Below are positions 32,242 through 35,829 of a stretch of DNA of 35,829 bases, in pieces; the stretch's first letter is position 1, and the number at the start of each line of letters is the position of its first letter. Made by a program: the position numbers and the translations under genes. The notes under the pieces were generated by a model. It ran no database searches. It was given only the letters and a program-made list of their open reading frames with translations, and was not told the DNA's origin. This stretch comes from Synergistaceae bacterium (GTDB taxonomy: Bacteria; Synergistota; Synergistia; Synergistales; Synergistaceae): the NCBI GenBank assembly GCA_031269245.1, contig JAISZL010000060.1, positions 1 to 35,829 of the forward strand, written 5' to 3'.

Positions 32242-32493
32242 TTATCTGTCCGCTATGAGGTTTTGTATTACGGCGGACAGCCCGCCGATGGTGGTAAACC
32301 CCGGGCTGGTAATGTTCTCGTCCGGTATTTCGACGTCGTACTTCCTCTCCAGAGTCACGATGAACTTGAACATGCCCACTGAGTCGATCGCCCCGGTCCT
32401 CGAATAGTCGAAGTCATCCGCCAGAGTCACCCCCTGCGGCAGTTTGCCGTTCTTTTCGATGTACCCTTTGATGAAATCGCGTATATCATCCAT
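32242..32493 (-). CDS. Acyl carrier protein-like (phosphopantetheine-binding) protein
   Basis: The protein is 83 residues, acidic and helical. The phosphopantetheine site is the Ser of TGAIDSVGMFKFI, a D-S-x pattern matching the DSL motif of ACPs with V in place of L. Helix III sequence DENITSPGFTTIGGLSAVI is also typical. It would carry acyl or aminoacyl groups as thioesters. I chose ATG at 32493 because GAGGAG lies nine bases upstream; another ATG three codons earlier overlaps that site. It follows the tandem SGNH-like gene by 55 bases on the same strand and is not next to fatty acid synthesis genes, so it is a dedicated carrier for that partner. Confidence 0.87.
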   Translation of the reverse strand: MDDIRDFIKGYIEKNGKLPQGVTLADDFDYSRTGAIDSVGMFKFIVTLERKYDVEIPDENITSPGFTTIGGLSAVIQNLIADR

Positions 32494-32548
32494 TTCCCGC
32501 ATCTCCTCGATTATAAACTCAAAAAAAACTCGAACGCTTCCGATCGCG

Positions 32549-35017
32549 TCATTTCGCGGCGGCAGCGCCTTGCAGGTGGTTTTTGACGTAGTCGAAGTAG
32601 ATCTTGAAGGCGGCGGCGCCGTATCCCCTGTGGTTGACGTGCCGCGTGTCGAAGTAAATGTTCTTGGTCTTTTGGTACAGTGCCAGCGTCTCCGTGAGAT
32701 CCACGGCATCCAGTCCGAGCTCTCTTAAATAACCCGAAAGGTAACCGAACGCCCTCCTGTCATTTTCGGTGATCGAATACCTCCGCCGCATGAAGAAAAT
32801 GGCCATATCCCCGTTTTTGATGCCGCTCGTTTTGAATCTAGGGATGACTCCTTTCTCCATAATATCGTCGTCCGTGGTGCTTCGCGCGCAAAGACCGTCG
32901 TTGACGACCCTGAACTTCTGCCTCCCCGGCTCGCCGGACGAGTAGTCATTCAAACGGGCCTGCAGTGCCCCCGCGACGGTGCCGCCATCGTCCGCGCCCA
33001 TGCCGAAAGCTATGCCGCCGCCGAAGATAAATACGGATCTGTCGAATTTTTGCGGACACCCCGGCGTGAATCTGCGGCCCGACGTTATATTGACGTGCTT
33101 CGACTTGACGTCTTTTTGCGTTATGGTGCCGTCGGGCATGATTAGCTTCCTCTCGGCGAACACGTCGTTCAGGTATTCGCGCGAAAAGCCCGTTGTGTCG
33201 TTCATCTGTATCGCGTAGTAAGTGAAGTTGGCATCGACGTTGTCCAGGGGGAACGACTTGGGCATGGCTTTGCGGTTCGCCGGTATGTCCAGCTCATCCG
33301 TGCGCGGCCAGAACACAATGCATGAGTTTGCGCCCTCCCGGGCGATGTCCCGCGACAAGCCGGGGTAGAGGAAATACTTGTCGTACACGAGGTTCACCAG
33401 GTCCTCGAATCGGATGACCTCTGTCTTTGTGTGCTTCCGGAAAATGCCTTTGATGTTGAAAATTTCCTCCCCAGGCATCGCTATTATCACGTCAGTCTGT
33501 TCCACCGCGGGGAGGTCGTCGATTTTGACGAACCTGACGCCGTGCGGGTTGCGGTAACGCGCGCCGTTGGACTCCACGGAGATCAGGTATTTGACGTCGA
33601 TCCCGCTCTCCGTCAGCTCGCCGACGAGCGACGTGATCTCCTCTTCGCACATGTCAGAGCAGCGGACCGCCGCGCTTTTGCAAGCAGACGCCTTGAAGAA
33701 CTCGCCGAGAGATCGCCCGCCGTCCCTCAACTTCTCCCATTTGGAGGCCAGTGACGTCCCGCGTTTTTCCGATGAGCCCTCCTCGCGCGTCCTCCGGTCG
33801 TCCTCGTCCAGCACGTTTTTCAGGTACTTCGTGAAAACGGCCTTAGCGAAAGCCCCGCACCCCCTATGGTTGACGTGGGTATTGTCCGTGTAGACGTTGC
33901 CGTGTGCCGCGGCCTCTTCCAATTCATGCGTGGGGTTTATGTAGTCCACGTCGTTTTTACGGAAAAGTTTGCCAATGTACTCATGAAATTTCCCGCCAAC
34001 ACGCTTTGAAAACAGGAGGTCCCCGCGCATGAACCAGAGCATGATTTTTTTGTCGCTCTCACACTTCTCCATTGCTTTGACGGCGAACGTGTCATCCATG
34101 CCCTGGACTCCGATGTAGGCCGTGTTGAACACCTTGTAGCCCCTGTCGGCTCCGTAATAGTCATTGATATATCTTTGCAGTATGCTCGCTATGGTGTATC
34201 TGTCGTCAACCCCGCTGGTGAAAGCGATGCATCCTCCATAGACATATATGCCGTAATCGCACCTGTCGGGCTGCCCCACCGTGAATCTGATTTCGTCGGC
34301 GACGTTCATATACGCCCCCCTATAATCGTTGAACGCTATGTAGCCGCCCTTATCGGCAGTCGGCGGTATTGCGCTGACCTCGGCCATGTACTCCGGCGAA
34401 TATTCGGGGATATCGGAGTACATGTCTTGGAAAAACTGCTTGTCTATCAGGTATTCCGAGCTGAAACACTCTCTTTTCAGGTACATCTCGTAGAGCGCTG
34501 GGTCTTTGAAATCAATCGGGCTTGGCCACGCTACAGAGCATAGTCTGGCGTTAACCCTCTTCGTTCCAGATGCTAACAGCCTGAACCCCATTTTTATGTT
34601 TAATATAAGATTTAACAGTCCCGGAAGCGGTATGACCTCCGCAGGGGTTCTTTTCTCTATGTCCATTTTTTTATGAATATAGTCATCGTTGGAGAGCAGC
34701 ACTACAAAATCCAAACTCACACCGGGATCGAGGTCCTCGATGAAGATGGCCTCTATCCCGCGTTCGCCGGATAGGCCGGCGTCGTCAAAATGCTTTGTGA
34801 TGACGCACCTGACCGCGATATCGTTCTGAGCCAGCTCATCCAGCAATAAGACGGCTTCCTCTGGATTTGCCCCCGGTTCATATATCGCTATCGAGTTAGG
34901 GCCTCCCCACAGGAACACGTCCGTCACGGAGACGCCGCATTCCTTCATGAACGCCCAAATATCCGCAAGGTCCTTATTCTTTTTCGATAGGGCTTCCAAC
35001 GCTTCCTGTGGATTCAT
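32549..35017 (-). CDS. Tandem SGNH-hydrolase-like protein, 822 residues
   Basis: The protein is two copies of one module. Each copy has a Rossmann-like N-terminal part (about 25-145 and 445-550), a linker with S(S/R)EYL, then an SGNH-like part: copy A YVYGGCIAFTSGVDD (258-272) to TDNTHVNHRG (377-386), copy B FIFGGGIAFGMGADD (663-677) to FDTRHVNHRG (789-798). The D-x-x-H of SGNH block V is kept in both (D378/H381, D790/H793). The usual block I GDS reads GGC in A and GGG in B, so the normal Ser nucleophile is not seen. No signal peptide or membrane helix is present, so it acts in the cytosol. Base composition is less GC-rich than its neighbours. It starts at ATG 35017 and precedes the ACP gene, suggesting acyl transfer or release on a glycan or lipid; this is inference. 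Confidence 0.75.
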   Translation of the reverse strand: MNPQEALEALSKKNKDLADIWAFMKECGVSVTDVFLWGGPNSIAIYEPGANPEEAVLLLDELAQNDIAVRCVITKHFDDAGLSGERGIEAIFIEDLDPGVSLDFVVLLSNDDYIHKKMDIEKRTPAEVIPLPGLLNLILNIKMGFRLLASGTKRVNARLCSVAWPSPIDFKDPALYEMYLKRECFSSEYLIDKQFFQDMYSDIPEYSPEYMAEVSAIPPTADKGGYIAFNDYRGAYMNVADEIRFTVGQPDRCDYGIYVYGGCIAFTSGVDDRYTIASILQRYINDYYGADRGYKVFNTAYIGVQGMDDTFAVKAMEKCESDKKIMLWFMRGDLLFSKRVGGKFHEYIGKLFRKNDVDYINPTHELEEAAAHGNVYTDNTHVNHRGCGAFAKAVFTKYLKNVLDEDDRRTREEGSSEKRGTSLASKWEKLRDGGRSLGEFFKASACKSAAVRCSDMCEEEITSLVGELTESGIDVKYLISVESNGARYRNPHGVRFVKIDDLPAVEQTDVIIAMPGEEIFNIKGIFRKHTKTEVIRFEDLVNLVYDKYFLYPGLSRDIAREGANSCIVFWPRTDELDIPANRKAMPKSFPLDNVDANFTYYAIQMNDTTGFSREYLNDVFAERKLIMPDGTITQKDVKSKHVNITSGRRFTPGCPQKFDRSVFIFGGGIAFGMGADDGGTVAGALQARLNDYSSGEPGRQKFRVVNDGLCARSTTDDDIMEKGVIPRFKTSGIKNGDMAIFFMRRRYSITENDRRAFGYLSGYLRELGLDAVDLTETLALYQKTKNIYFDTRHVNHRGYGAAAFKIYFDYVKNHLQGAAAAK

Positions 35018-35516
35018 ATGAACAACCGCCTATCTCAAAATATGAAGATTATTTTTTATTATCTCACATTTTCTTAGTTTTGCGTCGTTTTTCGCCAGCG
35101 CTCGCACCTACCAGTCAAAACTGGATTCCCAACCTCCGCTGACCCTATCACGTTTCACTGGGTCGCGCCTTGGCGCGCCCTGACATTTCTTCGTCCTGGG
35201 TAGGAGGGAAAACACGGGCAGATGTTTTGCTTTATTGCCGCCTCATTTTACGTGGGCTGATTGGAGGTGACGACTTGCCCGTGCTTTCCTCCAGTATTTG
35301 CCTGTTGGAAACGGCGCCTTGGGGTTACGCAGCCAGTCTTATCTGTTCCTGCCTTCGCCCTCTCCCAATACCAGTTCCGCCTCATATGCCTTCCCTGTTT
35401 TGAGTATCTGATAAATTTAGATACTCTCTTGACTAAGAGTCCGTCTAATATCTTTTTAACAGCAAAGACACAAACGCCAGTTTAACCATATTCAGTGATG
35501 TTTCAATGAGACGTTC
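35018..35516. other. Long region without a recognised gene
   Basis: The first 80 bases are AT-rich and may hold the promoter of the ACP/SGNH operon. Around 35160-35190 TCGCGCCTTGGCGCGCCC forms a hairpin. Open frames up to 77 codons exist on both strands, but none has a convincing start or family match. One minus-strand frame (ERLIETSLNMVKLAFVSLLL) looks like a protein C-terminus and could be a decayed gene. I cannot assign the block. Confidence 0.4.
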
Positions 35517-35531
35517 GGGTCGTCAACACTT
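35517..35531 (+). mobile_element. 15-bp inverted copy of the IS3 end
   Basis: GGGTCGTCAACACTT is the exact reverse complement of the right-end repeat at 214-228. In this orientation it would be the left end of an element extending to the right, but the sequence after it departs from the IS end and no transposase start follows, so it may be a decayed or solo end. Confidence 0.45.
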
Positions 35532-35760
35532 AATCTCTTCTTGCTGCATCTTCTCTCACCTCGTGGTTAATGTTACCACTTCCCTACCTAACTGAAACAA
35601 TTTGATAGTCATATATAAAAAAAGCTGCTTAATCATCGGCGGCAATCCGCACTTTGACAACTGAATTCAGCGACCGATGATATAATTGGCCCGATGGGGC
35701 TTTTCCGGCGAAGCAGGAGCCGGTGAGTGCAGGTCTTGACCTCTGAGGGAGGTGACGCGG
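35532..35760 (+). promoter_or_regulatory. Upstream region of the gene at the right edge
   Basis: A perfect TATAAT lies at 35681-35686. TTGACA at 35654-35659 is too far (21 bases) for a standard spacer with it; GATGAT at 35676-35681 would give 16 bases. GAGGGAGG at 35745-35752 is the ribosome binding site of the next gene. Confidence 0.4.
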
Positions 35761-35829
35761 ATGCCTAACGGCGGAAACGGCCTTCCAGGCAATAAGAAAG
35801 AGGAGCAAGGCACACTCTCCAAAGTTGTA
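35761..35829 (+). CDS. Unidentified gene, 5' end only
   Basis: ATG at 35761 is preceded by GAGGGAGG with good spacing, and the frame stays open to the edge of the window (23 codons). The visible part is Gly/Asn/Lys/Glu-rich and hydrophilic, a likely flexible N-terminus. Too little is seen to name the product. Confidence 0.55.
   Translation, partial: MPNGGNGLPGNKKEEQGTLSKVV

Follow-up and report, generated by a model that had tools for sequence, protein, structure and literature searches.

The window, a stretch of 35,829 nucleotides, corresponds to contig C98 in the 2.34-Mb assembly of an uncultured Synergistaceae-type gut bacterium. At the end of this contig, flanked by repeats, lies a gene for an 822-residue protein, which is followed 55 bases later by an open reading frame for an acyl carrier protein (ACP). 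The features discussed below are located as follows.

35013..35142, minus strand: dispersed element of about 130 bp that ends at the start codon of the SGNH-like gene, promoter-like or 5' leader-like
32549..35017, minus strand: 822-residue tandem Rossmann plus SGNH-like protein, putative Cys-SGNH acyltransferase (open reading frame, translation, A-B homology)
33782..35017, minus strand: half A (residues 1-412), putative catalytic unit (alignment, profile search)
34628..34900, minus strand: Rossmann-like part of half A (residues 40-130; secondary structure of the model)
33788..34306, minus strand: SGNH-like core of half A (residues 238-410; model, Foldseek, hhalign)
34229..34231, minus strand: Cys263 codon (GGC) at the nucleophile place, Cys in all of the 17 A or single units
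33875..33886, minus strand: block V of half A, D378-x-x-H381 (His in 16/16 and Asp in 14/16 readable units)
32549..33781, minus strand: half B (residues 413-822), degenerate unit with a putative structural or binding role (clade, loss of Cys, dN/dS)
33014..33022, minus strand: GGG (Gly666-668) instead of GDS in half B (sequence; GDS in the G003 orthologue)
32242..32493, minus strand: ACP of 83 residues with Ser38 (32380-32382) as putative 4'-phosphopantetheine site (Pfam, NCBIfam)

Each half of the 822-residue protein consists of a Rossmann-like part and an SGNH-like part. In BLASTP, halves A and B shared 26% identity over 405 columns (E=3.8e-39), and a profile built from A units alone matched the B half with 244 bits. 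The block I Ser (GDS) of the SGNH superfamily is missing from both: block I reads Y-GGC-IAF in half A and F-GGG-IAF in half B, so that Cys263 and Gly668, respectively, occupy its place. The D-x-x-H of block V, by which membership of the superfamily is also judged, is present in both halves, as DNTHVNHRG (D378, H381) in A and DTRHVNHRG (D790, H793) in B. V-x-N close to block II is conserved, and a clear GxND (block III) was not seen. The protein carries no membrane-like segment (19-residue hydropathy mean <= 1.44). The GC content of its gene is 54%, compared to 60% in the window. A preliminary description of this DNA had reported two similar halves that both contain D-x-x-H-VNHRG, the absence of the usual catalytic Ser and the lower GC content of the gene, and these observations were all reproduced here.

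Searches of the window protein with Pfam, NCBIfam and PHROGs returned nothing usable. In particular, no SGNH family of Pfam matched it, and for its relatives Lipase_GDSL_2 reached E 0.008-0.04, which is under the cut-off. A model of the whole protein was poor (pTM 0.47, mean pLDDT 72.6) and the fold search with this model was uninformative. We therefore modelled only the SGNH part of half A (residues 153-412), using an 11-row alignment, and obtained a pTM of 0.84 and a pLDDT of 79.7. Foldseek against the PDB aligned this model with the GDSL esterase 4rw0 (probability 1.00, E 2.9e-3) at moderate TM values of 0.42/0.57, with the putative esterase CgnD (E 9e-4) and also with CEX and EstA. Many other GDSL matches were found, and TesA-type thioesterases appeared further down the list. 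The SGNH-like fold that had been proposed earlier was thus supported for half A, on which the structure check was run. Since the defining Ser of SGNH is missing, we call the window protein SGNH-like and place it outside the SGNH superfamily in the strict sense. Using hhalign, the unit profile aligned over 155 columns (E 1e-12) with a protein of Vibrio sp. THAF190c in which an SGNH unit is fused to a citrate-lyase-ligase (CitC) domain; Cys263 lined up with the Ser of GSSTTYG in that protein. The Rossmann-like part showed a weak resemblance to the N-terminal domain of NeuD/PglD (hhalign probability 69, E 4.5e-5); its reading as a PglD_N/NeuD-type sugar-binding domain is weakly supported.

To describe the family we sampled Synergistota together with plasmid, phage and viral records. 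A search among relatives identified homologues in 9 of 61 genomes. Of 188 Synergistota genomes, 17 were recovered with the A-unit profile, three of them giving only weak partial matches. A scan of genome contigs yielded four loci, all of them from Synergistota. Within the phylum, the nucleophile place was occupied by Cys in all 17 readable first-half or single-unit homologues, even though block I varied around it (GGC, GPC, GHC, GTC, GDC, GNC and GAC). Block V retained its His in 16/16 and its Asp in 14/16 readable units of this type. On the contrary, none of the eight B units carried the Cys (they show G, S, D, D, G, N, T and T instead), and the block V His was kept in three of seven. With relatedness ignored, Fisher tests of A or single units versus B units gave 9e-7 for the Cys and 0.004 for the His. 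Chance is excluded as the source of the Cys pattern (17/17 vs 0/8), the missing Ser is non-random and Cys263 is a family-wide trait.

In a tree of 25 units, all B units formed one clade with support 98/98, and the duplication was therefore one old event. The dN/dS ratio was about 0.15 overall and about 0.13 in the SGNH part of B. Both halves are hence under purifying selection and, consequently, half B has a job. These data support half A as the catalytic unit and half B as a degenerate unit that is nevertheless selected, in line with the earlier suggestion that one half may be catalytic and the other structural: Cys, His and in most cases Asp are kept in A, whereas B lost the Cys and is still selected. 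The closest orthologue, from genome G003 (69% identity), is a counterpoint, since its B half contains both GDS and DxxH; this half could still work as a serine enzyme, and not every member has an inert B. Accordingly, the GGC and GGG noted earlier at block I hold for the window protein, but GGG in half B is not a feature of the family.

The second gene, said in the preliminary description to encode a dedicated ACP, indeed has the features of one. It starts with ATG, is preceded by GAGGAG as ribosome-binding site, and places Ser38 in a DSVG motif, as expected of the helix-II Ser of PP-binding proteins. It scored 20.7 bits against Pfam PP-binding (cut-off 20.8, E 4.9e-4), and several ACP models of NCBIfam matched it (best E 1.6e-8), all of them below their equivalog cut-offs. 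The ACP is under purifying selection as well (dN/dS about 0.17), and a gene of the AcpS family is present in the window genome. In G003 an ACP with 76% identity to that of the window directly follows the orthologue. A terminator-like hairpin with a T run lies between the SGNH-like and ACP genes (32533-32550) and may uncouple their expression; in the terminator scan overall, sites were only slightly above those in shuffled sequences.

Conservation of the ACP neighbour among homologues held in part. An ACP is directly adjacent in one orthologue only, that of G003, and ACP adjacency thus comprises two orthologues including the window; an ACP-like open reading frame is found in the G028 locus, but most relatives carry a CitC domain instead. 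A C-terminal PF08218 (CitC) domain is fused to the SGNH unit in 9 of the 17 homologues and encoded by the next gene in two more (11/17). In the fusions tested with Pfam, E values ranged from 1e-63 to 1e-68; the fusion of G002 is broken into two open reading frames. The CitC domains have preserved their motifs SAS/SAT-x-VR and NPFT-x-GH, the latter with DPFT in one case. CitC activates acetate with ATP and then acylates the thiol of an ACP, and in principle the CitC domains here might activate a compound that is not a carboxylate. No PF08218 domain was found in the window protein; like its G003 orthologue it lacks CitC and adjoins an ACP instead. Of the remaining four homologues, three run into or end near contig ends, and that of G022 has neither CitC nor ACP on its contig.

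CitC fusions also occur outside Synergistota, in Vibrio sp. THAF190c (L089/L091) and Deltaproteobacterium Smac51 (L090 1-2736). Read by eye, they combine Ser-type SGNH-like parts with TPR-like repeats. PLSDB lists the Smac51 fusion as hypothetical and gives no annotation at the Vibrio one.

Three relatives, in G003, G026 and G028, lie in NeuB (nonulosonate) loci. The G003 locus runs from an oxidoreductase, a CMP-sugar synthetase, a CBS-nucleotidyltransferase, NeuC, an SDR, NeuB and NeuD to an AMP-binding ligase, an oxidoreductase, an SGNH2-CitC gene on the opposite strand, the SGNH2 gene, the ACP and an FkbM methyltransferase. In G026 the SGNH gene ends the NeuB locus, at the start of which two flagellin genes are located. 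The G028 gene is flanked by NeuB genes, and FabH and the ACP-like open reading frame close the locus. A further operon, in G005, encodes an AMP-binding protein, LuxE, LuxC and a deacetylase, followed by SGNH2-CitC. This last protein (L033 3-4316) extends N-terminally beyond the unit by about 400 residues, giving a chain of at least four parts.

The window genome itself contains flagellin, NeuC, NeuB, NeuD and an AMP-ligase on another contig, C69, with proteins 70-81% identical to those of G003. Contig C69 ends 152 bases past the second oxidoreductase, and no end overlap joining C98 to C69 was found. Between NeuB and NeuD, the C69 locus (L105 3820-5553) holds a FemAB-like gene and a methyltransferase that are missing there in G003.

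Because the sister genes lie in flagellin-sugar clusters, the pair probably adds an acid group to the sugar coat of the flagellum. We consider it probable that the two proteins work in the cytoplasm as an acyl-transfer module, which would serve a flagellin-linked, sialic-acid-like nonulosonate glycan, and this glycan is the most likely substrate. The sequences show the ACP, the SGNH-like fold, the conserved Cys, His and Asp of the family, the degenerate state of B and the linkage of the genes to CitC and ACP and, in relatives, to NeuB-flagellin loci; catalysis, an acyl thioester, the acyl group and its acceptor are inferred. In the proposed sequence of events, the AcpS of the cell would add 4'-phosphopantetheine to Ser38 of the ACP. 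An adenylate-forming ligase, probably the AMP-binding enzyme of the C69 flagellin locus, would then load a carboxylic acid onto the ACP; in most relatives this activation would fall to a CitC-type domain on the same chain as the SGNH unit. Cys263 of half A, together with His381 and Asp378, would accept the acyl group as a thioester and pass it to the nonulosonate sugar, or to the nucleotide-activated form of this sugar, at a hydroxyl or an amino group. Half B, having lost its nucleophile, would hold the sugar, the ACP or a dimer. The preliminary description had envisaged an acyl-transfer, thioester-handling or sensing module for a surface glycan or lipid. The tie of acyl or thioester chemistry to a glycan was strengthened by CitC, the ACP, the AMP-ligase, LuxE/LuxC and the flagellin-nonulosonate loci; a sensing role found no support.

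The Cys-SGNH half could instead be a thioesterase that cleaves acyl-ACP or strips wrong acyl groups in an editing step, with the ACP as its substrate. Such an enzyme would likewise adjoin an ACP, and the structural matches include SGNH thioesterases of the TesA type. We nevertheless regard this as unlikely, since two large units with Rossmann parts exceed what editing needs, the CitC fusions point to charging and not to discharge, and the genes are linked to sugar-building genes. Alternatively, Cys263 could take the activated acid and hand it to the ACP, so that another enzyme would move the acyl group to the sugar. Acyl-protein synthetases use a Cys, the relatives combine CitC-type activation and the Cys on the same chain, and LuxE is encoded in the G005 operon. 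A loading enzyme is nonetheless improbable here, because the window member is without an activation domain, the flagellin locus already provides an AMP-ligase, and the usual substrates of SGNH folds are oxygen esters of carbohydrates (PMC9487903). Finally, a non-catalytic scaffold, in which Cys263 would be kept for structure, a metal or a disulfide and the halves would only bind sugar and ACP, fits the lack of a clear motif in the oxyanion-hole block III, the loss of GDS from both halves and the mean pLDDT of 72.6 of the whole-protein model, but appears very unlikely given that A units have jointly retained the Cys, the His and in most cases the Asp, and B units have lost them, which is the pattern of a catalytic triad.

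The acyl-transfer reading invites comparison with known SGNH systems, for which a 2022 review describes the nucleophile as Ser and mentions cysteine a few times, only in connection with disulfides (PMC9487903). The SGNH (GDSL) acyltransferases and esterases that act on carbohydrates (OatA, PatB, AlgX/AlgJ, TesA fold) share with the window protein the SGNH-like core, the D-x-x-H of block V and a likely acyl-enzyme chemistry on sugars. The window protein differs by a block I with Cys rather than Ser, by tandem units of which the second is degenerate, and by ACP or CitC as partners rather than MBOAT/AT3. It also has no membrane-like segment, which sets it apart from these proteins and from the extracytoplasmic SGNH acetyltransferases. 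With CitC (PF08218, TIGR00124) the family shares the C-terminal nucleotidyltransferase domain that is fused or adjacent in 11/17 homologues. Acyl handling in the fusions would fall to the SGNH unit, whereas the separate CitC of the window genome (contig C33) shows a GNAT-like motif in this position (read by eye); TIGR00124 scored 212 bits, against a cut-off of 262. The Vibrio sp. THAF190c plasmid protein is similar in that an SGNH unit is followed by CitC and its Ser in GSS aligns with Cys263, but it differs in this Ser nucleophile, its TPR-like N-terminus, its single unit and its phylum.

ACP, AMP-dependent synthetase, LuxE and LuxC co-occur, beside sugar and flagellin genes, in flagellin glycosylation islands of Enterobacteriaceae (PMC4875605) and of Aeromonas group II (PMC7874193). 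The former islands also contain FkbM methyltransferases (PMC4875605). The authors suggest there a liposugar part (PMC4875605, PMC7874193). The passages compared here name no SGNH-CitC protein; in Synergistota, to which the acyl genes described here belong, the acyl-moving enzyme may be the Cys-SGNH protein. Our literature search, of partial coverage, found no papers on Cys-SGNH proteins, on SGNH-CitC fusions or on SGNH proteins with nonulosonates. It is quite possible, though we put this forward tentatively, that the family is a new branch of the SGNH fold, a cysteine acyltransferase to which an ACP or a same-chain CitC-type adenylating domain delivers acids in the form of protein thioesters and which transfers them to nonulosonates in the cytoplasm, its old second copy having become a binding domain. 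If true, a family that is all Cys and keeps His and mostly Asp, and whose chains are fused to an ACP-acylating CitC domain or adjoin an ACP, would illustrate the way in which thioester chemistry came into the fold. A testable answer would also be at hand for the role that ACP, ligase and LuxE/LuxC play in islands for flagellin glycosylation, for which "liposugar" is at present only a guess.

The lower GC of the gene had earlier been taken to suggest transfer. The G003 orthologue is low in GC as well (53.7%). Low GC and the patchy family (17/188 genomes, three with weak partial matches) fit an accessory island, with no donor shown. A phage origin found no support, as searches of phage, plasmid and viral contigs with the window protein gave no homologue. 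Copies of the element of about 130 bp (77-85% identity) lie directly before the starts of unrelated genes in further genomes of this genus (L119 3242-3372, L120 4594-4679 and L121 4325-4452).

Further upstream, a repeat of about 85 bp (35433-35517) has about ten copies or fragments in the window genome, of which the fuller ones are 90-97% identical; several lie close to contig ends, at distances of up to a few hundred bases, and the repeat is also found in other genomes of the genus. The stretch 35647-35825 is 85% identical to an intergenic stretch of G004 (L118 9085-9261), on a contig that also carries a flagellin gene and sugar-nucleotide genes. A short open reading frame, MPNGGNGLPGNKKEEQGTLSKVV, begins near 35761 and runs off the contig.
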